Shown piece by piece: positions 9,901 through 54,430 of a DNA stretch of 64,000 nt (positions within the stretch are counted from its first letter, which is position 1; each line of letters opens with the position of its first letter). The stretch covers positions 14,443,144-14,507,143 of the forward strand of contig OU342634.1 of the NCBI GenBank assembly GCA_910589415.1. Direction: 5' to 3'. Under the pieces are notes generated by a model, which was given only the letters and a program-made list of their open reading frames with translations, did not search any database and was not told the DNA's origin. Position numbers and translations under genes: made by a program. Source of the DNA: Malachius bipustulatus (Eukaryota; Arthropoda; Insecta; Coleoptera; Melyridae).

Positions 9901-12763
9901 ATATGAAACATACATTAATTAAGCACTGGTCGGCGCCGTTACGGTGCGCTTACACTAGAAAGGGCACTCCTTCATTAAACAAATTCCGGGAGACGAGTAT
10001 TTCCCTCAGAATATTACCAGACTGACTCAATAACCTCAAGTCTGCATGGAACAGGATCGCCATGATATTTTTAAGGGGCTCAACTTTAAAGAAGGTAGAT
10101 TTGTCACTTCAATATAGAAAGCAAACAAGTTTGGAAATGCGAACAAGGGAAACAGGTCAGGAAAACTGCTTGCTCTTGTCCCGCACCCGCTGATTTCGTC
10201 GGTTTATTTACCTTAATAATGACGCAGAGTCCCGTTGGATATCTTTCCTGATTCCAGGAATCTAATCTGGTCTCGAAATAATATTCCTATAAGGCAATAT
10301 CCTCCATTGAATACTAGAGGCATTCATTAAGTAAATTGATCTTCATCGAGCACGAAAAACGTGAAAAGTAACTGAAGAGGATCAACCGAGGGATCAACTA
10401 ACTAGTAAAGGATCAATCCTCAAAACTACATTATTGAATTTGAGATGATGGGTATAGCAGCGAAATAAACCCCAGGCCCAGAGAGCGGGTATATTTGTAT
10501 TTTTATAAACAATAAAGGATTACTTACATGAACAAATAAGAATCAATTTAAAGAGAACCTGGAAAACGGCAGTAAATGTTGGCATTGATCCGTTTTCAAT
10601 TGATTCGTATGAATGTTTCATTAGAATCGGGCGTAATTCAATAGGACGCCGTTGTAAATAAGTAATAAATCCCTCTTAGTCCCAGCAGGCGGCCATGGGA
10701 GAGAATCGCTTTAGCCCTTCGACATTGGGATGAATATTTAAGTCCATTATGATAATCTGGACGTTCGCTCCCTTGCGGCAGGAGAGGCCGCCGCCGCCAC
10801 CGCCGCCGCCGCAAATTCAAAGATCCATTCCGTTTAAACGACGTGAATTCAGAGATACGAGCTGGGGAACGACGTCATCAGGACTGATGGCCCGGACACG
10901 GGGCTAAATGGGGTCCTTTCCCAGCTCTCTCAGAGAAACACATAACGGACCTGGACTTAATTGAACGACCTTGTCTAGAGGGCACGCAATTATTATTGTC
11001 GATGTAATGAAATATGTTGTAGATTGTAAAGGGAATTGCTGTAAACCGAATCCGTTTACAGGGCTCGGATCTAGCGTTAGCGTAACCTAATAATAATCGT
11101 GTATTGCGTAGATACACTCTGAAAACTTCCATCAAAAGGCTCGGGTCTCTTTTCTTTTTCAGATCGCTCCCCGGGGCGTTGTGAAATATTGCTTCAGCTC
11201 TAAAACTAATAAAAATATTGAACTTTCCTTCAAATTAACTCCAGAACATTAATTAAAGTTTCAAAGCCGACCAAACTTTCTGCGTTGATATAAGATCAAT
11301 CGCGGAACTTTCTCACTTTTGTTTGTCTTATTATGGTTAAATTTTGTCAATCAATAAGCTATACAGATATGGTAAGTAATCGAAGCACTTAACATCTTTC
11401 TACTGATTTAATTTAGATAGAGCTGGTTATTAAAGTGGCTTGATTGAGCCTCGAGGGGGTCGCTTCTAGTTCTCAGATGGATGTCTGATTTCAGCGGATT
11501 ATAGGGAATTCTATAATTATAGCAATCCCATGTCAATCAGATATACAGATCTATTATCTGCGGATATGATCAAAGCGCGTCTTTGATGTATAATATGATG
11601 TATGATGATTAATATCTGCACACTGGAAATGCTTCGGGATGGTTGATTCTTTGGGGATGATACGCATTCCTATGTAAATGCCAATCATCATCTTATTTTC
11701 AAGGGAAATACAGAATATAACAAGTCTTGAGTTTGGATTAATTAAGGAAATATTATATTTTAAGGCGGGGGGGGGGGGGGGGATTAATTTTTTTGCAGAA
11801 GCTTAAAGTGGGGTAAAAATTACCGTTTTGGTTATTTTAGGTCATATATTTAGTTTAGGTTTTATTTTTTTGGGTATCAGTGTGTTTCACTTTAAAGCTG
11901 ATTCCATTTAAAGTGTATTTTAGGTTATATATTAAGCTCGTTTTCCTGCAAGAGGGTGAACTAAGGGAATACTACCCCTTTGAGTTTTTTTATGTTGATA
12001 GAATAATGTTATGGTGATAGAATTTTATTATCGAAGTTTCTTTTTCTATTTCAAGTCGTTAAAGAAAAAAAGATAAATGCGAATTTTCTACCCCATTTCA
12101 TAGGGCTGTAACTTCTCAGCGGTGGCTTAAAAAAGATTTTTATTAGGAATGTCCACTTAAATTTTTCTCTATTGATTAATGAGACATTCTCTATACGTGC
12201 TACAACAGACAGCGAAAATAAAAATAGCGTGCAATGTGAAAAAGAGTTCGGAAAGCGGAAAATACCGTAAAAGTACGGAAAGTCCCGGTAGAAGCACCGA
12301 GAGGAGGGATAAGTTTGTTACATTTTCAGCTTATGCAAGTTCTTTTGTTATTAACAACTTTAATATAAGGGAGTAGATAAAATAATTTAAACTTCAAATA
12401 AACAATAATTTTGAACTGAATATTTTAATTTACAATTTTGTACCTCCCGAACGTACCCGCGGTAAACTTGATAACTTTGATAACTTTGCGATTATTATAC
12501 AGTCATGGATGAAATTTGAGCTCAAAGCGGTTGCTGCATATTTCCTTTGTTTTCTATAATCTAGCAGAGCCTGTTCATCTGATTTGATAGCGTTATAAAC
12601 AAAGTTTTAACATGGCCTCCATTCTAGATTACACCACCACTGAGAGGAAATTGCGAGGACGTTTAATTAAAAATGTTAGTACGTTATTGAGGGCAACTTT
12701 ATGCTTTTTTGTTATTGTTATTATCATTTCGTTATTACGTTTACCTTTTTAATACCTTACATA
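9901..12763. other. non-coding stretch
   Basis: Possible weak continuation of family E up to about 10190. Otherwise AT-rich sequence with a short (CCG)n run at 10788-10812 and a 17-base G run near 11767. No gene was recognised. The 10.6-11.1 kb part is less AT-rich, but its ORFs run on both strands and look like chance. Confidence 0.5.
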
Positions 12764-14464
12764 CAGGGTGAATTATAAAAAACGCCCCAAGCGATAACTC
12801 CGTTAATTTTGAAGATATGACAAAACTTTTTGAAACAAAGTAGCGTAGTTTATCATCATCTATATGTTGAGATAAACGCTCGATCAACACAACTTCCTGT
12901 TTAACCGGAAGTAACATCAACTTCGGGTTTTTAAATAGAACACCCTGTAAAACTTTATATTTTTTAAATGTCTGAAGAAATCTAATACAGGCGGTTTTCA
13001 CCATTGGAATTTAGATTGAGCGGTTTATGAGTTATAAACAAGTGAAGATCGAAAATTTTCAACTTCAAAGCAGTGTAGAACTAGAACGGCTCAAGATATC
13101 TAAAAACGGTTTACATGTCTCTATCCTAACTTTTCATGTTTTATTCCACTATGTGGAGTAAATTTTAATACAGGGTGATGAAAATTATCCGATTTTTCAT
13201 CACCCTGTATTAAAATTTAAACCACATAGTAGGATACTGTATCAAAAGTTAGGATGGGGACATGTAAACCGTTTTTAGATATCTTAAGCCGTTCTAGTTC
13301 TACACTGCTTTGAAGTTGAAAATTTTCGATCTTCACTTGTTTATAACTCATAAACCGCTCAATCTAAATTCCAATGGTGAAAACCACCTGTATAGATTTC
13401 TTCAGACATTTAAAAAATATAAAGTTTTACAGGGTGTTCTATTTAAAAACCCGAAGTTGATGTTACTTCCGGTTAAACAGGAAGTTGTGTTGATCGAGCG
13501 TTTATCTCAACATATACAGGGTAAGTCATTGATATGGTAAAGCTCGATTGCACCTACACCATTAAAGATATCGAAATGAACCAAAAAGTGCTGTAAATGG
13601 GAGGGTAAAGTGCAGTTTGTAAAATTATTTTCAGATACACAGGATGGCCCAATATCGCTGTACGCCATACAACTTTGTTATTTTAAATAGGACACCCTCT
13701 ATATTATTACATTTTCATATTGTTTGAGAAAAGTCAAAAAGAATGGTTTGTAAAGTTGAAGTTTGTAATGAGCAATTTATGAGTTATAAACAAATGAAAA
13801 TCGCGATTTTTCATTTTCAAATCAGCTTATATTGAAAACGGCTCGAGATATGGAAAAACGGTTTACATGTCCCTATCTTAATTTTTAATTTGGTATCCTA
13901 TCATGTAGCTGAAATTTTTATACCGGGTGATGAAAATAATCAAATTTTTTACCACTCTGTATAAAAATTTCATCCATCCAATAGGATACCGCTTGAAAAG
14001 TTAAGATAGGAACATGTAAACCGTTTTTCCATATCTCGAGCCGTTTTCAATATAAGCTGCTTTGAAAATGGAAAATCGCGATTTTCATTTGTTTATAACT
14101 CATAAATTGCTCATTACAAACTTCAACTTTACAAATCATTCTTTTTGACTTTTCTCAAACATTATGAAAATGTAATAATATAGAGGGTGTCCTATTTAAA
14201 ATAACAAAGTTGTATGGCGTACAGCGATATTGGGCCATCCTGTGTATCTGAAAATAATTTTACAAACTGCACTTTACCCTCCCATTTACAGCACTTTTTG
14301 GTTCATTTCGATATGTTTAATGGTGTAGGTGCAATCGAGCTTTACCATATCAATGACTTACCCTGTAGATGATGATAAACTACGCTACTTTGTTTCAAAA
14401 AGTTTTGTCATATCTTCAAAATTAACGGAGTTATCGCTTGGGGCGTTTGTTATAATTCACCCTG
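12764..14464. mobile_element. ~850-bp palindromic TA-inserting element, interrupted by a second one
   Basis: The ends are TA-CAGGGTGAATTATAA at 12762 and TTATAATTCACCCTG-TA at 14466. The left arm is 12764-13188. The right arm is split into 13190-13516 and 14368-14464 by the insertion listed next. If that insertion and one TA are removed, the arms are both about 425 bp and nearly identical, with the axis near 13189. It has no coding capacity. The TA duplication and the length place it with non-autonomous Tc1/mariner-type elements (MITE/foldback). The superfamily is inferred from the duplication only. Confidence 0.85.
13517..14365. mobile_element. 849-bp palindromic element nested in the previous one, TA duplication
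   Basis: It begins CAGGGTAAGTCATTG and ends CAATGACTTACCCTG, flanked by TA at 13515-13516 and 14366-14367. The axis is near 13941 and the arms are about 425 bp with scattered mismatches. The empty site can be read from the other arm of the host element ('ctcaacatatagatgatga'), which has a single TA at this point, so insertion with duplication of TA is directly visible. No transposase is encoded. Confidence 0.9.
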
Positions 14465-14467
14465 TAT

Positions 14468-16851: not shown

Positions 16852-17870
16852 CAGGGTGTTTGACATGAGAAAGTGAACCGACATAGAGCAGGGGCGTGTA
16901 GAAGAACCCATGATATGATAAATTAATGCAACTTATTTCTACACTAATTTGCATCCCTTGAAATAGGGGTTTAAAATTTCGAATAAAATCCATATCTCAA
17001 TTATACTTGAGGTTAGAAAAATCAAATTTGATAGATATGGTGAGTGTAGCAGGAGCATTCATTGACAGTAAGTGAAGTTAAATTGTAGCATTTTAAAGGA
17101 TTGATAAGGGATGATGCACCCTTAAAATGTTACATAATTTTTTAACCTGCAAGCCGATTTGGGAAATTGTTACTTTATTTTATCGGGAATTTAATTGTAG
17201 AACTTTTATTTCTTATATTATTTTTCAAAAAACTTTGTAATTTTCAACAAAAACCCGAATAGCTAAAAAAAATTATGTAATTAAAAATAATCGACAATTC
17301 AAAAGTTTGGCTTCAAACGTGACATTCAGGAGGAAATTTGGAAACGACCAGTTTGTTGAAAAATTACAAGAAAAAAATGTTGGAAAAGTATGAAATCATT
17401 AAGTACTTTACCTATGAGGAATTTGATTTTCAAACTTTTTCTTCTCTTGTAATTTTTCATGAACTGTAATATTTTCAAGTTATCACGTTTATCACTGATT
17501 ATCACGTTTTAAATTTAATATGCCAAGTTTTGAATTGTGGATGATTTTAAATAACACAAATGCAATTCTTTTTTTTTAATTATTCGGATTTTTGTGGAAA
17601 ATGTCAAATTTTCTTGGAAAATAGGGAAATAACAGTTTGATAATTAGATTCCTCATAAAATTGAGTAATAATTTTTTAAATTGGCCAACGGGCTAGAAAA
17701 TTCTGTAACAATTTTAAGGGTGCATCATCACTTATCAACCCTTTAAAGTGCTACAATTTTGACATCTATCAAATTTGAATTTTTAAAACTTCTATTTCAA
17801 GGCCTATAACTTAATATAAAGAGAAGTTGCATTAAGTCACCATATTTGGGTAGAATAGTTTGTATTTTTT
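16852..17870. mobile_element. decayed ~1-kb palindromic element with CAGGGTG left end
   Basis: The left end is TA-CAGGGTGTTTGACATG at 16850. Inward, 'gatatgataaattaatgcaac' (about 16912) is mirrored near 17845, 'cccttgaaataggg' near 17800, and 'ttgataagggatgatgcaccc' (about 17101) near 17720. The axis is near 17407. The arms are clearly more diverged than in the 12.8-14.5 kb elements, and the right terminus is no longer recognisable. Confidence 0.7.
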
Positions 17871-34172: not shown

Positions 34173-34288
34173 GCTCTTGTTCTTATTATTATTACTTCTA
34201 GGGTAGGTTCTAAGCCTTTGTACTGAAACTTGCACTTATTGTACCCCTTTGGATAATTATCTCATCAGTCCCATCTCCCGAAAGTATT

Positions 34289-34537
34289 TCAGAGTCCAAT
34301 GAGTGCTTGTTCTATTTCTTTTGGTTCTGCCATTTCGGTCCCAAATACTAGAAGTCTAATTCCCTCTAGTGCTGGGCATTCACACATTAGGTGGTATGGG
34401 GTTTCCTCCCTCTCCTCGCATCTCCTGCAATCTGGGATGTTTTTCACTCCTATTATTGAGAGGTGTTTCACTAGTGGGCAGTGTCCTGTTAGAAATCCAA
34501 TTGCCCATCTCAGCTGGTGTTTACTCAGCTTTTTCAG
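34289..34537 (-). pseudogene. C-terminal ORF2 fragment of the I-like family
   Basis: From the junction inward the frame reads KLSKHQLRWAIGFLTGHCP, then HLSIIGVKNIPDCRRCEE with the CCHC finger CRRCEEREETPYHLMCECP, then FGTEMAEPKEIEQA. It is nearly identical in protein to residues 130-215 of the 2.1-kb copy. An in-frame stop lies near 34288, 30 or so residues before the stop of the other copy. Confidence 0.85.
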
Positions 34538-41795: not shown

Positions 41796-41810
41796 AATAG
41801 GTATATTACT

Positions 41811-43545
41811 AAATCTGGCAACGAGGCTTTAAAAGAAGAATGTCAAAGCGTTTATTTTGAAATTTTGTAGCCAAAAAGTGCTAGAAGTTTACAACATAAA
41901 ACTCTATTCCTGCTTAAAATTGAAATTCTCTCCCCAAAATTCACTTAGTAGGGGATATGTTACTAAATCTTGCAACGAGGCATTAAAAGAAAAATGTCAA
42001 AGCTTTTATTGTCAAATTTTGTAGCCAAATAGTGCTGAAAGTTTGCAACATCATCAAACTGTATTCCTGCTTAAAATGAAATTATCTCCCCAAAATTCAC
42101 ATAATAGGGGGGGGGGGGCTAAATCTGGCAACGAGGCTTTAAAAGAAGAATGTCAAAGCGCTTATTTTGAAAATTTGTAGCCAAAAAGTGCTAGAAGTTT
42201 GCAACATAAAACTGTATTCCTGCTTAAAATAAAATTCTCTCCCCAAAATTCACATAATAGGGGATATATTAGTAAATCTGGCAACGAGGCTTTAAAAGAA
42301 GAATGTCAAAGCGTTTATTTTGAAATTTTGTAGCCAAAAAGTGCTAGAAGTTTGCAACATAAAACTCTATTCCTGCTTAAAATTGAAATTCTCTCCCCAA
42401 AATTCACATAATAGGGGATGTATTACTAAATCTGGCAACGAGGCATTAAAAGAAAAATGTCAAAGCTATTATTGTGAAATTTTGTTGCCAAATAGTGCTA
42501 AAAGTTTGCAACATCATCAAACTGTATTCCAGATTGCTATTTAAATTCCCTCCCCAAAATTCACATTATAGTGGATATATTATTAAATCTGGCAACGAGG
42601 CTTTAAAAGAAGAATTTCAAAGCGCTTATTTTGAAATTTTGTAGCCAAAAAGTGCTAGAAGTTTGCAACATAAAACTGTATTCCTGCTTAAAATAAAATT
42701 CTCTCCCCAAAATTCACATAATAGGGGATATATTAGTAAATCTGGCAACGAGGCTTTAAAAGAAGAATGTCAAAGCGTTTATTTTGAAATTTTGTAGCCA
42801 AAAAGTGCTAGAAGTTTGCAACATAAAACTCTATTTCTGCTTAAAATTGAAATTCTCTCCCCAAAATTCACATAATAGGGGATGTATTACTAAATCTGGC
42901 AACGAGGCATTAAAAGAAAAATGTCAAAGCTATTATTGTGAAATTTTGTTGCCAAATAGTGCTAAAAGTTTGCAACATCATCAAACTGTATTCCAGATTG
43001 CTATTTAAATTCCCTCCCCAAAATTCACATTATAGTGGATATATTATTAAATCTGGCAACGAGGCTTTAAAAGAAGAATTTCAAAGCGCTTATTTTGAAA
43101 TTTTGTAGTCAAAAAGTGCTAGAAGTTTGCAATATCATCAAACTCTATTCCTGCTTGCAATTTAAATTCTCTCCCCAAAATTCACATAATAGGGGATATA
43201 TTACTAAATCTGGCAACGAGGCGTTAAAAGAAAAATGTAAAAGCTATTATTGTGAAATTTTGTTGCCAAATAGTGCTAAAAGTTTGCAACATCATCAAAC
43301 TGTATTCCTGATTGCTATTTAAATTCTCTCCCCAAAATTCACATAATAGTGGATATATTATTAAATCTGGCAACGAGGCTTTAAAAAAATAATTTCAAAG
43401 CGCTTATTTTGAAATTTTGTAGCCAAAAAGTGCTAGAAGTTTGCAACATAAAACTCTATTCCTGGTTATAATTGAAATTCTCTCCCCAAAACTCACATAA
43501 ATAGGGGATGTATTACTAAATCTGGCAACGAGGCTTTAAAAGAAT
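41811..43545. repeat. 155-bp satellite, 12 units, with 3-mer higher-order repeat
   Basis: The box 'aaatctggcaacgaggc' starts units at about 41811, 41965, 42121, 42274, 42428, 42585, 42738, 42892, 43049, 43206, 43363 and 43518 (spacing 153-157). There are two unit types. One has 'ttaaaagaagaatgtcaaagcg' and 'tagccaaaaagtgctag'. The other has 'ttaaaagaaaaatgtcaaagc', 'ttgccaaatagtgctaaaag' and 'catcatcaaactg'. The segments at 42320 and 42784 are nearly identical 464 bp apart, that is, a three-unit repeat. Open frames of 74-75 codons across it arise from the unit length and are not genes. Confidence 0.95.
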
Positions 43546-43864
43546 ATAATTGATTCCCTCGAATAGATTCCCATTCGAGTTCTGACTGATTAAGGATTTA
43601 TGGTAGGTAAATACCTGTTCAGATTATTGGTCCCTTTTATTACCACCATATATCATTCATTAGATACCTGTCATTTACATAATTATTTTATATGTTTTAT
43701 TTAATAAAGTCTTGTAATTAGATTTATAATTATTTTTATTGAACCACTAATTATTTGATTATATAATATTTGACGAATTTTATTGGGATTTAGGTTCTAA
43801 TTTAAATTTGCCACTAAAGATTCTTTACAGAACAAATTATCTTGTCTTGTACTTAATTAGTTTT

Positions 43865-49618: not shown

Positions 49619-49915
49619 TAGGTCCTATTCTTTTTTTTTTTTTTTAAAAAGAGGGAGCATCGGTCTTAACTGTGTAGGTAAGACATAGTCGCTCCACTCT
49701 GGTAATTTGGCTTTGAGACGAACTCTTTAGCCACACACACTTTTAAATTTATATTTTCCTTTTAAACGTTCGATCGCTTGTTTTACTTTTCACAGACATT
49801 CGAAAATGAATCTGAAAAGTAAAGCGGGCCGAGGTGAGTTTCGAACTCGCGATCTATGGCTTCGTGAGCCAGCGGAGAACCACTAGGCCACGCAAGTCAC
49901 TTAGGTCCTATTCTT
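49619..49915 (-). mobile_element. tRNA-derived SINE with poly(A) tail and 14-bp TSD
   Basis: On the minus strand the element starts at 49901 with a tRNA-like head: A box at 49878-49890 (tggcctagtggtt) and B box at 49836-49848 (gagttcgaaactc). It continues as an unrelated body and ends in an A run of about 15 at 49631-49645. The direct duplication TAGGTCCTATTCTT at 49619-49632 and 49902-49915 is perfect. Body length is about 270 bp. Because the head is followed directly by the body with no processing boundary, it is a SINE and not a tRNA gene. The intact duplication suggests a fairly recent insertion. Confidence 0.9.
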
Positions 49916-49929
49916 GTAAATATATTTTT

Positions 49930-50110
49930 TCACATTTCTCATTCTTCAAGTGACATCTCCGAGTGCGGTCATTGATATTTTTACTTTAGACGCGGCTGCT
50001 TTAAAAAGTTGGTTAGACGTGCATCCGAACCACTCTCTCAGGTTTCGCAACCACGAGATTTTCCTCATGCCTATGCCACGTTTTCCTTGGATTTTACCCT
50101 AGATTATCAA
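49930..50110 (-). pseudogene. C-terminal tail of an RTE-like ORF
   Basis: Right to left: LIIQGKIQGKRGIGMRKISW, then WLRNLREWFGCTSNQLFKAAA. This is the conserved C-terminal block of RTE-clade proteins ('GkieGkRgrGRrr.sWl.nLr.W......LfraA'). Most of the RT domain between this and 50150 is deleted. Confidence 0.82.
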
Positions 50111-50149
50111 TTGCAGAAGCAGAAGTTCATATTTCTTTTCCTTCTTTCA

Positions 50150-50675
50150 TAAATTTTTCAATGCATATTTTAGATGTTCTTTGGTGATATCTGGACCTAT
50201 CTCTTCGTGGTAATTATTCATTTCTTCTGGGTCCGCTCTATTATCCATAAATAACTCTTCCGTGTACTCTTCCCATCTTTGTAGTTTGTCTGCTGTGCTC
50301 ATTAGGACTTTTTTTATTTATCCTCTTTATTCACCAGAGTACTTGTGCAGATTGAACATATCGTATCTTCTGTCCAGGTGCTGGATTTCATTACATCTGT
50401 CTTCGTCGTATTTTTTCTTTGCCTGTTGAATCTTTATTCTGGTATCCCTCTGTAGTTGCTTGTATTTTTGGATATTCTGGCTTTTGTATATTCTTCTCTC
50501 GCTCATCATATCTAATATTTCCTCAGTTCCACTCTTTCCAGATTTTCTTTTTGTCTTCAGTTAGAAATTCTTTTCAGGGATTAATTATACTTTCTTTGAA
50601 GTTCTCCCATTCTTCGTTTATGTTTCCGTGATTTGTTTGCATTTTATCTAAGTTTTCGTAGATTCTGTTTTGGAC
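50150..50675 (-). pseudogene. endonuclease-RT linker and RT N-terminus of the RTE-like element
   Basis: Following the inserted ribozyme element, the frame resumes as IREQVQNRIYENLDKMQTNH. Then come KRISKNTSNY-like and YDEDRCNEIQHLDRRYDMFN blocks (50330-50480), and LQRWEEYTEELFMDN with GPDITKEHLKYALKNL near 50165-50290. This is the typical helical linker and the 'GP.I...Ev..Al..lK' start of RTE RT. There are a few frameshifts and stops. Confidence 0.8.
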
Positions 50676-51074
50676 TTGTTCTCTTATTAACTTAGAGTGA
50701 ACTCACGGTTAGTTCTTTGAACTGACCGCTAGATGTCGCTCCATTTACACCACATGGAGATCCGTGTTAATTCTTGCCTTAAGAGGCCCCAACTTCCGTT
50801 CATCCGACAGCATCCTCCAGACACTCCAGATGCAGCACACTGATGAGTTCCAGTAGAACGAAACACGTGTCTGTGCTTGATTTGGTACTCTGGAAGGCTC
50901 TGCTGTTGGATATTGGAAGCTCCTTCTCGATTGGAGTTTCGGGCACTGCCAGCATGACAACTGTTATGGGCGATGGAGGAATTCTCCGAACCCACCTAAC
51001 AGGCTAGTAATTGCACTCTATGTTCTTTATACTCATTGACCTACAATTCACTATTTTATGAATTGTTCTCTTAT
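50676..51074 (+). mobile_element. 375-bp hammerhead-ribozyme element with perfect 12-bp TSD
   Basis: The element body is 50688-51062. TTGTTCTCTTAT stands at 50676-50687 and again at 51063-51074. Removing the insert and one copy restores an uninterrupted RTE-like reading frame on the minus strand (..NIREQ joined to VQNRIYENL), so the boundaries are exact. The insert is non-coding in sense. An 88-codon minus-strand frame (50729-50995) has no recognised motif. It carries a complete type I hammerhead ribozyme at 50825-50894. It has no poly(A), no TIRs and no Pol III boxes. It shares several boxes with the element at 54285-55140. It could be a retrozyme or a short Penelope-like derivative. Confidence 0.85.
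50825..50894 (+). ncRNA. type I hammerhead self-cleaving ribozyme (copy 1)
   Basis: All parts of the hammerhead consensus are present in order. Outer stem I is UCCAGA/UCUGGA (50825-50830 with 50889-50894). The internal loop is UGCA on the 5' side and 12 nt on the 3' side. Inner stem I is GCACA/UGUGC (50835-50839 with 50872-50876). Core CUGAUGA is 50840-50846. Stem II is GUUC/GAAC around a 5-nt loop (50847-50859). GAA is 50860-50862. Stem III is ACA/UGU around CG (50863-50870). H17 is C50871, giving a GUC cleavage triplet. Predicted cleavage is between 50871 and 50872. The very short stem III is like hammerheads of Penelope-like elements and animal retrozymes, which often cleave best as dimers. 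Confidence 0.9.
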
Positions 51075-51360
51075 GTTTGGTTCTTGTAGTTTCGTTGTGT
51101 TAATTCTTGGTATCTTATTTTGTTTTTTACGAGCCTTTAGTTTGAGCTTTATAGTGGCAGTTAGTGGGTTGTAATCTGAAGAAGCGTCGGCACCTGGATA
51201 GGTTTTTACTGAATGAATAGTATTTCTGTATCTTTCATTAACAAGGATGAAGTCGATTTGATTTCTAATGATCTTGTTGTATTCATCTGAAGGGGATTTC
51301 CATGTATAAAGCCTTCTGTTCGGCAAAAATTGTTAGCTGCAAGATTGTTCTCCCATTTAA
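51051..51360 (-). pseudogene. AP-endonuclease C-terminal half of the RTE-like element
   Basis: The frame reads LPNRRLYTWKSPSDEYNKI, then IRNQIDFILVNERYRNTIHS, then YPGADASSDYNPLTATIKLK. These match the 'RRYTW.SP......iDfI........i...ktfpGAd..SDH.lv......k' block of RTE-type endonucleases. The catalytic His of SDH is replaced by Tyr. It runs into the linker and is split from 50675 by the ribozyme element. The endonuclease N-terminus above 51360 is not recognisable. Confidence 0.85.
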
Positions 51361-53290
51361 ATTTTTGTGAGCTCAATTTGACGAATTAGATCAAAAGTTA
51401 TAATGAATTTAGTGCAGCGCGGTCGTGGCCGTGATCCCTGGGAGCGTTAGCCTGTTTCCGATTTTCGGCCTTTAGAAAAGAAATTCTGCAGCTTACAGTT
51501 TTCATTTTAGAGAAAAAACTTTATTTACATTTTTGATGTAAAATTGCCTATTCTTTCGAATGTCAACCAGTTTTTCTAGGAAAGTGAAGTTTTCGAGAAA
51601 CTCCATAAACAAAAAATGTATATACATACATACTTCTTATATGTTGAATAAATAGTCAAGCTAAGGCTTTATGGTTGGGAGCTTTTCACCGGTTGGTAAA
51701 TCTTCCGCCAGTTTTTCCGAAGTAAAAATCTAATTTGACTCCACTCTATGAACAATATTAATTATTATTACTAGATAATGAAAGTTTTAAGTGATTGAAT
51801 GCAAAGTAAAAAACCTAGAGCGTTCCATCTCTAAAACAAGAAGTCCGATAACTGTAACGGATCACCCAAGTCACTGCTACGTTTTACCATCACTCTTAAT
51901 GATTTTGTTGGAAATTTGCCTGTTGTCCAATGCGTGAATCACTGTAATTTGGTTATTGTATCTCTTACAATAGACTTGCTACTTAATTACTTTCGTGACT
52001 GATTGACGATGTAATTAGAAAACGAATAATCCAGGATAACGGTCCAAGCAGAGGCGTTCTCGCAGCCAGATATATACAAGTTTGATCATCCGAGCCGGCG
52101 AGCCCTAACGAAATTACTCATGTTAACACTAATCAATAATGTTGATCCCGTTTTTACAGAACTCAATAACGAACGGTTCTCATTTTATGAAATATACACC
52201 CAACACTAATGATGACAATATGTAAAGTAATATTCAATTTGGATTCTGGAACGCATGGAAGTTTAACATTAGCGGTGGTGATGGTGATGGTGAATCGATA
52301 CCTTCGGCTTGCCATTAGTAATTTGATTTCTGGCATAATTAGATGACGTGTTCTGTTCGAAAGGGGCGCTCAATAATTTAGGGGACAGATCGAGTGCTGT
52401 TATTATACCTAAATCTTACGTAGAGGTTCCTCCAATAAACGTTCAAGTACACCCCCTCTTTCTGAGGGAGGGAATTCCTATAGTTACTATTATAGTATAA
52501 TAGGTATACCTATTCAATTAACTACGGCAAAGTAAATTCCATTAATGAAATTGAACGAATACCTATCCTATTAAGTACATAATTATCGTTTATGTAGGCA
52601 CGTTGCTTTGATTTATTGATCATGTCTCTACAATTTATTATAACTATTTAATTATGTAAAGTAGGTAAATATTCTTTCTTGTATAACACTTCCTTTTTTG
52701 TTTTGACTCGCAAAGTAATACGTATTAATTGATAATTCAATTAACTCAGATTTTTCGTACATAATTCCTTTTGAAAAATTGAAATATCTCTGACGGATGA
52801 TTAATACTCGTAAAACACACACTATAATGTTTTAAAAATTCTACTGTATGCTGATAAAAAATATTATCAATTTTATAAAGTAGCAAAACACGTGTAACAA
52901 TGATAATATCCAACGCAGTATACAGTAGAATTTTTAAAACATTATTGTTTTATTTAACATCCATCAGTATGATGCAGAGATTATATACAAAGTAAAAGTA
53001 AGGATTGAAAACATAAATTTTATAAAATATCTCTGTTTGTTTACATGTTAACATGTTAATAAAATTTCGTAATGCCTCATGTTAATACTGCCATGTTTGC
53101 AGTAATTCGTCCCAAAATTGTGAAAAAAGTGTTGTGCTATTATTAGCATGGTCTGATGAGAATGCGGGTATATTGTGACGTTGTAGATAAGAATAATAAG
53201 TTTAAAAGGATTATTTCGCTTGTCGTATATCGTGAACATTGCGGGAGTGAGCAATTGAAGATTTCTAGACACTTTTCGATTACGAGATTT
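51361..53290. other. AT-rich non-coding stretch
   Basis: No coding or RNA feature was recognised. 'gttttaaaaattctactgtat' near 52830 has an inverted match near 52922, suggesting a small (~115-bp) decayed inverted-repeat element. Confidence 0.45.
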
Positions 53291-53310: not shown

Positions 53311-54267
53311 TAGTTTAAAGTGCAGTACATGGGTATATTGGAAACGGCAAGAGATACAGGGTCGGTTAAATTAGAGAAAAGTTGCACAATTTGATGCTTA
53401 ATAAGAATTTGATTTTTTCTCCTGAAATATCCTGAAAAAACTGAAAACCCGAAATTTCTTATTTTACCCATATCTTTTTTATTATTGAAAATTAATTAAT
53501 TATTTTTTGTAGGCTTACATAAGTCGTCAAAAGCTATCCGTTTGACATTACAAAAATTTTCAAAGCCGACTAGATCCCAAAGTTTTCATAGCCAACTTTT
53601 GTTTTTCTTATGGCCGCCATTTGGTTTTTCTGTGTCATTCGGTATGAAAAAAATAATGGAAACCAAAAACTAATAAACTTCAAAAAATAAATTTCAAAAA
53701 TTTTTATTCTCCTTTTTTCGAAGAAAAACAACAAAAATTTCTCTGAAATACGTCAATACGGAGTCATACTGCTTGCCTCATGGTTTTTTAATTTCTCTAT
53801 GATATTCTATCTAAAAAGTTGTATTTTTTTAAGGAAAAAGAAGAATAAAAATTTTTGAAATTTATTTTTTGAAGTTTATTAGTTTTTGGTTTTCATTATT
53901 TTTTTTCATACCTAATGACATAGAAAAACAATATGGCGGCCATAAGAAAAACAAAAGTTGGCTATGAAAACTTTGGGATCTAGTCGGCTTTGAAAAATTT
54001 TGTAACGTCGAACGGATAACTTTTGACGACTTATGTAAGCCTACAAAATCAATTAATTAATTTCCAATAATAAAAAAGATACAAGTAAAATAAAGAATTT
54101 CGGGGTTTCAGTTTTTCAGGATATTTCAGCAACTACTGAAAATATAAATAAAAAAAACTCAAACTTATTGAGCATCAAAATATGCAACTTTTCTCTAATT
54201 TAACTGACCCTGTATCTCTTGCCGTTCCCAATATACCCATGTACTGCATTTTAAACTGGACACCCTG
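53311..54267. mobile_element. ~957-bp palindromic element, second copy of the 26.4-kb core family
   Basis: The right end is '...aaactggacaccctg' followed by TA at 54268-54269. The left end starts at 53312 with 'agtttaaagtgcagtacat', and its last ten bases are replaced by an 18-base A run. An inner pair of termini, TA-CAGGGTCGGTTAAATT and its mirror, lies about 45-50 bp inside. The core matches 26395-27330, including the 'atggccgccat' boxes. It is non-coding. The ribozyme element at 54285 lies directly to its right. Confidence 0.85.
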
Positions 54268-54366
54268 TATATTAATACAAATAAATTCATTAATAATTTT
54301 TCAGGGCTATTTTTACGCTCTCGAAGGGCTTCCTGAGGCAGACCAACACACAGAGCCATCCAGTCA

Positions 54367-54430
54367 TCTCGAAGCCGTAGACAACGCTGTTTCGGTCTTT
54401 TTATGACCTCATCAGTAAAGTTTATCGAGA
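54367..54430 (-). ncRNA. type I hammerhead ribozyme (copy 2, minus strand)
   Basis: Read on the minus strand. Outer stem I is UCUCGA/UCGAGA (54425-54430 with 54367-54372). There is an internal loop and a weak 2-bp inner stem I (UA/UA). CUGAUGA is 54409-54415. Stem II is a perfect GGUC/GACC around a 7-nt loop (54394-54408). GAA is 54391-54393. Stem III is ACA/UGU around GCGU. H17 is C at 54380. Predicted cleavage is between 54380 and 54379. The inner stem I is weaker than in copy 3, so activity may be reduced. Confidence 0.85.

Follow-up and report, generated by a model that had tools for sequence, protein, structure and literature searches.

Animal retrozymes, as described in PMC7229834, are non-coding elements built around a type I hammerhead ribozyme with a short stem III and an extended stem I. 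They occur as tandem or single copies, with units of ~170 to 400 nt, target duplications of more than 4 bp and a stable predicted RNA fold. Penelope-like elements (PLEs) have been put forward as strong candidates for the helper of animal retrozymes because the two share traits and occur together (PMC7229834); shared hammerheads and tandem copies are cited besides the co-occurrence itself (PMC7229834, PMC7761336). In 2024, LINEs or PLEs were still being named as the candidate spreaders (PMC11722881). The LTR retrozymes of plants (PMC4918200), as described in PMC7761336, are also non-autonomous carriers of a hammerhead, and their spread is presumed to go through circular RNA.

PLEs themselves leave a characteristic signature. 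Insertions of Poseidon in Anolis (PMC11167929) and of Penelope elements in bdelloids (PMC3846280) show two internal RT start sites that bound a tail of 30 to 40 bp. Their arms may be inverted or partly in tandem, the target duplications are short, and a hammerhead adjoins the start of the ORF. With the purified PLE protein, reverse transcription starts at two adjacent internal sites, the interval between them matching the genomic 30 to 40 bp tail, and both target strands are extended (PMC11167929). In bdelloid Penelope families, a 31-bp tail is present on one of two inverted pLTRs (PMC3846280).

The element that concerns us here lies in the window, a 64,000-nucleotide stretch of the genome of the beetle Malachius bipustulatus. 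It has every feature of the animal retrozymes listed above except the size of the unit, which is 458 nt. It also departs from them in its short arrays (none above ~2.5 units in the loci studied), in the inverted arms of more than half of 38 insertions and in a 3' module derived from a PLE. From the plant elements, with their type III hammerheads, LTRs, PBS/PPT and 4-bp duplications, it is set apart by its type I ribozyme and a 12-bp duplication. It shares with PLEs the two internal 3' sites and tail, the arms and the short duplications. Unlike them, it has no ORF (reverse transcriptase and GIY-YIG domains are found in a separate element, L074), and its hammerhead of the working type, a canonical type I, lies elsewhere in the unit, the PLE-type one being degenerate. 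Our reading, to which we would give a probability of roughly 0.85, is that this is a non-autonomous, non-coding retrozyme of the animal type that uses the reverse transcriptase/endonuclease of a PLE as its helper. What would be new is evidence at insertion junctions for PLE mobilisation of an animal retrozyme, previously proposed from co-occurrence. Among the open-licence papers that our searches listed, no title or opening of an abstract mentions end- or sequence-level evidence for a retrozyme helper, a result that falls short of proving novelty.

The hammerhead and its 458-bp family

The first-pass annotation, made from the letters of the window, had placed a type I hammerhead at 50825-50894. 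The elements it named are all present, in canonical order (Table 1). It had also read stem I as two-part, which stands, with an inner helix one base pair shorter than the 6 bp we count, and in the predicted fold stem I runs past the limits it had set. A covariance-model check, which it had proposed, came out formally borderline: RF00163 (Hammerhead_1) is matched from its first to its last position, at 32.6 bits. The E-value is 3e-5 when 6 kb are searched and 3.2e-4 when the whole window is compared with all 4227 Rfam families. The match stays under the gathering score of 34, and a default Rfam scan gives nothing at that score. Taken alone, an 86-nt stretch holding the hammerhead has an unexceptional folding energy (z -1.5); at minimum energy it folds into stem I but not into the full three-way junction. 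A second, weak match, to Hammerhead_HH9, lies at window positions 54363-54426 (23.2 bits vs a cut-off of 52, E=0.27).

Table 1. Features of the hammerhead, the insertion and the related Penelope-like element (window positions unless a contig is given).
Feature	Position	Strand	Remark or basis
Left target site duplication copy, 12 bp TTGTTCTCTTAT	50676-50687	+	within exact repeat
Inserted element, unit 1-375 of 458-bp retrozyme unit	50688-51062	+	3' end at site A (after TATGAA)
Hammerhead including two-part stem I	50826-50885	+	sequence and predicted fold
Stem I outer helix, CCAGAU/AUUUGG	50826-50831/50880-50885	+	read from sequence
Stem I internal loop between inner and outer helix			GC/UG
Type I hammerhead ribozyme, Rfam RF00163	50834-50877	+	model match; core near-invariant in ~60 aligned copies
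Stem I inner helix, AGCACA/UGUGCU	50834-50839/50872-50877	+	6 bp
CUGAUGA	50840-50846	+	
Stem II (4 bp) with loop (5 nt)	50847-50850/50856-50859, loop 50851-50855	+	
GAA	50860-50862	+	
Stem III, self-complementary ACACGUGU	50863-50870	+	2-3 bp
Cleavage-site C of GUC	50871	+	predicted cleavage after 50871 = unit position 184
Degenerate relic of PLE minimal hammerhead	50958-51002	+	both stems pair, CUGANGA core lost
Segment homologous to L074 pLTR-ORF junction	50958-51062	+	unit 271-375; alignment score
5' arm UAUACUCA of site-A hairpin	51028-51035	+	3' arm UGAGUAUA at unit 384-391
Right target site duplication copy, 12 bp	51063-51074	+	within exact repeat
Intact PLE L074	C6:1069300-1073600	minus	open frame 823 codons, 810 aa from ATG

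An 85-nt stretch with the hammerhead is identical, letter for letter, at 14 other distinct loci (30 were fetched, of which 28 are distinct, counting the window). Variability across copies is about threefold lower in the hammerhead (unit 147-190; 0.011) than the mean elsewhere (0.034), a level also found at unit 251-275 and 301-325. The dispersed copies, the identical hammerheads at other loci and the low variability of the core rule out a chance motif. The ribozyme in the window is thus confirmed as a structure, with cleavage as a prediction from it. Viral contigs scanned with the hammerhead pattern gave no match.

The annotation had assigned the ribozyme to a short mobile element, and the exact 12-bp repeat on either side of 375 bp, together with the many dispersed copies, bears this out. 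In the same genome (544 Mb, 52 contigs), a 331-bp query gave 1517 first-look candidates, and the 40 that were scored yielded 64 matches of 90-100% identity; the best other copy among those scored is 99% identical over 329 bp. The best of the other copies are 98-99% identical, and the window copy departs from the majority letter at 3 of 375 positions; it is therefore young. Tandem copies place an 83-bp linker between 375-bp parts, hence a unit of 458 bp (unit position p is window position 50687+p, up to p=375). In 5 of the 38 loci, two pattern-intact hammerheads stand 450-459 bp apart on the same strand; the window copy, having one, could not release unit-length RNA by itself. Repeated three times, the unit contains no stop-free stretch longer than 74 (+) or 88 (-) codons, and its GC content is 44.8%. 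By its sequence, then, the window element is a young, many-copy, non-coding mobile element. Its 375 nt are unusually stable in predicted fold (z -4.3). Folded as a circle, the 458-nt unit reaches -150.2 kcal/mol vs -110.6 (sd 6.3) for 100 shuffles, with a paired fraction of 0.61, the same as the 0.60 of the shuffles. The annotation had named both retrozymes and PLEs as known contexts, and both turn out to be relevant: the build is that of a retrozyme and the integration module that of a PLE.

By eye, the sequence on either side of the insertion (50000-50687 and 51075-51400, minus strand) resembles the decayed remains of a reversed non-LTR retrotransposon. At 49826-49889 on the minus strand, Rfam gives a tRNA-like match (23.9 bits, below the gathering score of 29), possibly the head of a tRNA-derived SINE. 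Farther off, the RNase H open frame of a non-LTR element occupies 2071-2781 (with zf-RVT just under its cut-off), and the 3' part of that element (2500-2860) recurs inverted at 34177-34534 with 92% identity. Self-comparison shows a tandem array of ~11 copies with a period of ~155 bp at 41796-43546. Large inverted repeats or palindromes at 12761-14467, 17080-17759 and 53312-54257, probably DNA transposons, have identities of 83-99% (71% at 17080-17759), and 13143-13235 holds sub-threshold matches to miRNA models.

Insertion ends and a Penelope-like relative

Our set of 38 distinct insertions comes from 40 loci (L001-L030 and L033-L042), of which L015 and L023 are duplicates. It consists of the best matches to the 331-bp query, not of a random sample, and its proportions are not genome-wide ones. 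Two outer 3' ends recur among the insertions, 34 nt apart and assigned with a precision of ~10 nt: site A at unit ~375, after TATGAA, and site B at ~409, after CTTCTTC. Both outer ends are readable in 21 of the 38 (L003-L007, L010, L012, L013, L017, L019, L020, L022, L025, L026, L028, L034-L036, L040-L042), and all 21 are inverted head to head with one A end and one B end. The B arm is only ~12 nt in L005 and also short in L020, and L013 contains ~1.1 kb of other sequence. An exact flanking repeat of 8-14 bp is present at 20 of the 21 (none was found at L025), a count in which repeats may include a few bases common to the element end, the L022 repeat is poly-A, and the 8-bp repeats, confined to L004, L028 and L042, are possibly chance within the search range used. 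In the remaining 17, there is a single arm or at least one end that cannot be read as A or B. The single-arm insertions are the window copy, which ends at A, and L039, which ends at B and has a 12-bp repeat; at least one end is neither A nor B in L002, L008, L009, L011, L014, L016, L018, L021, L024, L027, L029, L030, L033, L037 and L038.

These ends are distant from the ribozyme cleavage site, and cDNA synthesis would therefore have begun inside the RNA unit. The longest array among the loci studied, L016, holds ~2.5 units, and copies of more than one unit call for a circular or multimeric template. Within an insertion, opposite arms agree at subfamily sites in 166 of 181 comparisons (96.1 expected) and same-strand units in 106 of 125 (67.5 expected); rare variants are mostly private (228, with 10 shared). 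The agreement supports a common template for the arms and units of one insertion, short of proof that the template was a circle.

A search for GIY-YIG in the same genome (150 of 775 candidates scored) found several families with long open frames among those scored, up to 855 codons and once 921, many of them in tandem arrays of ~3.3-3.5 kb. GIY-YIG by itself is not specific to PLEs (12 of 14 control genomes match), and both domains were verified in the L074 family only. The L074 protein has RVT_1 (1.7e-9) and GIY-YIG (2.8e-8) domains. Its best match, at 44%, is unnamed; among named proteins, those of beetles come closest (Diabrotica, up to 42%), and butterfly proteins reach 35-36%. As a separate observation, head-to-tail GIY-YIG arrays with a period of ~3.3 kb occur on C11 and C9 and at C2:60809391-60829603 and C3:53639590-53653136; their frames often have 833 or 841 codons, and the strand switches within the C11 array.

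It is the junction between pLTR and ORF in L074 that the retrozyme resembles. Unit 271-435 aligns with it (reverse-complement 1463-1617) at a score of 32, vs a mean of 17.9 (sd 1.9, maximum 27) for 300 dinucleotide shuffles; the homology reaches unit 435 in full-length copies, and the window copy is without that last part. A core identical at 21 of 22 positions, TTTATAC[T/C]CATTGACCTACAAT, is embedded in similarity of ~65%. The junctions of five other PLE families (open frames of 833, 848, 855, 840 and 841 codons) score 13-17 and the reversed unit 16-20. A further related PLE, L069, has a raw alignment score of 27.

The ends of the L074 family obey the same rule as those of the retrozyme. A 241-bp query from the L074 junction gave 41 matches (40 of 260 candidates scored). 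Nine reach the end of the query, and the other 32 all stop at query 159-167 (A', n=13) or 195-208 (B', n=19). Counting opposite-strand matches no more than 12 kb apart as ends of the same insertion gives 10 pairs, every one of which joins an A' end to a B' end; the 12 of the 32 ends without a partner among the scored matches are 3 A' and 9 B'. Duplications of ~13 bp can be made out by eye in three pairs (L077/L078, L080/L081 and L083/L084). Of 11 helper end regions, L076 proved to be no end, since it continues into the ORF, and L085 yielded no match. Site A aligns with A' in an ungapped stretch, and site B falls within ~2 nt of B', beside a gap in the alignment that is followed by a shared ATTATTC. 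Pooled, the one-A-one-B rule holds for all 31 double-ended insertions (21 retrozyme, 10 PLE), for which the probability would be 2^-31 if each end chose freely and equally. Together, the module and the ends point to an L074-type PLE as the helper on which the retrozyme would depend.

The resemblance extends to RNA structure. Perfect 8-bp arms, 32-35 nt apart with site A in the loop, read UAUACUCA...UGAGUAUA in the retrozyme and L069 and UAUACCCA...UGGGUAUA in L074 and L065. The two forms differ by one compensatory pair change, which separates the L069 and L074 families of PLEs; the retrozyme has the L069 form. Because the window copy ends at site A, it lacks the 3' arm. Upstream of this hairpin, the PLE has a minimal hammerhead (CUGAAGA...GAAAC) that aligns with a hairpin in the retrozyme, in which stem I and stem II are retained and the last pair of stem I is U-A where the PLE has C-G. 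A pattern scan found a minimal hammerhead-like motif of the PLE type before the ORF in four of the five other PLE families and none in the 833 family. An Rfam search of L074, L065, L049 and L055 gave no hammerhead even at E-values up to 5. Distinct CTGANGA...CGAAAC motifs near the expected pLTR-ORF junction were also seen in L049, L066-L069, L074 and L087-L089. Mutation of the PLE hammerhead left insertion in vitro unaffected (PMC11167929), and a structural role for that hammerhead, and for the relic hairpin of the retrozyme, would fit this published result.

The genome holds a second retrozyme family, with higher hammerhead scores. An Rfam search of the whole genome (74 of 73468 candidates scored) put all 74 above the gathering score, at up to 60.1 bits; 11 of 14 control genomes gave weak matches, none above gathering. 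Several of the genome hits are in tandem with a spacing of 319-320 bp. One, L090 (C1:2206015-2207019), has a different unit of 320 bp with a similar hammerhead (58.7 bits), and its family includes tandem and inverted copies. Four of four inverted insertions (L091-L094) have outer ends at unit ~266-272 and ~118-122, and it seems that the fixed two-site rule holds here too, with sites ~170 nt apart. Among the PLE loci studied, none scored above shuffles as a helper for the 320-bp family.

Other ways to account for the element

Could the element be part of a PLE, a solo or deleted pLTR of an autonomous copy with no separate existence? Unit 271-435 does derive from a PLE and the ends coincide with PLE ends, as such a fragment would require, yet unit 1-270, which includes the type I hammerhead, matches the helper and the other sampled PLE loci no better than chance. 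The retrozyme family is homogeneous, moreover, with a tandem period of its own (the spacing between paired hammerheads given above), and it has 1517 first-look candidates against 260 for the helper junction (these are not copy numbers). We consider this explanation improbable. We think it very improbable that the ends of retrozyme and PLE coincide through the same host repair or RNA structure and not through a shared enzyme. Site A does lie within a hairpin loop in both; a shared enzyme, though, would account at once for the common module, for an A/B rule obeyed by 21 of 21 retrozyme and 10 of 10 PLE insertions, and for the known internal priming by purified PLE protein.

SINEs moved by LINEs have a single 3' end, with a tail that is poly(A) or made of short repeats. 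An ordinary SINE with the hammerhead as a passenger would be short, non-coding, dispersed and flanked by duplications of more than 4 bp, all of which is true of the element, and the window copy sits in sequence that by eye is LINE-like. Against this, its copies have two end sites, TATGAA and CTTCTTC, with no poly(A) or simple-repeat tail at either. The fixed internal 3' ends, the head-to-head arms and the partial tandems are PLE traits, and the sequence matches a PLE junction, all of which makes a SINE very unlikely. As for satellite DNA spread by recombination, with terminal repeats that are coincidental, the first animal hammerheads to be described came from satellites (PMC7229834), and the second family in this genome has 320-bp tandem copies. 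Ends that recur at fixed unit positions and exact flanking repeats at 20 of 21 double-ended insertions leave that account scarcely credible.

How a retrozyme might borrow a PLE enzyme

The preferred reading, a retrozyme moved by a PLE protein, suggests the following course of events. Copies would be transcribed, and tandem copies, with the two hammerheads seen in their structure, would release 458-nt units by cleavage. The released RNA would probably be circularised. The PLE protein would then bind the module that, by homology, was copied from the PLE pLTR-ORF junction: the former hammerhead hairpin followed by the UAUACYCA/UGRGUAUA hairpin. Both strands of a staggered target cut would prime cDNA inside this RNA, perhaps simultaneously, one cDNA end falling within the hairpin loop, at A, and the second at B, 34 nt downstream, as the ends in the DNA indicate. 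Joining of the two cDNAs head to head, often 5'-truncated or longer than one unit, would give the insertions we see, with duplications mostly of 8-14 bp. The window copy would be a single-arm product of 375 nt ending at A.

A more specific picture is one that we offer tentatively and would rate at a little under even odds. The PLE enzyme, probably as a dimer, would hold one circular retrozyme RNA; the cut target ends would start at A and B, and the circle would be copied outward both ways, with head-to-head closure. The retrozyme would then be a fusion of a canonical hammerhead RNA with a PLE priming module, in which the PLE hammerhead was kept as a structural hairpin without its catalytic core. 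In the published PLE assay, no difference in start site was observed between the two target strands (PMC11167929), whereas the genomic rule of one A and one B is strict here.

That strict rule is a sharp constraint on PLE integration. And as one genome contains the retrozyme together with an intact PLE whose priming sites are homologous and whose ends obey the same rule, the question of the helper is directly testable.
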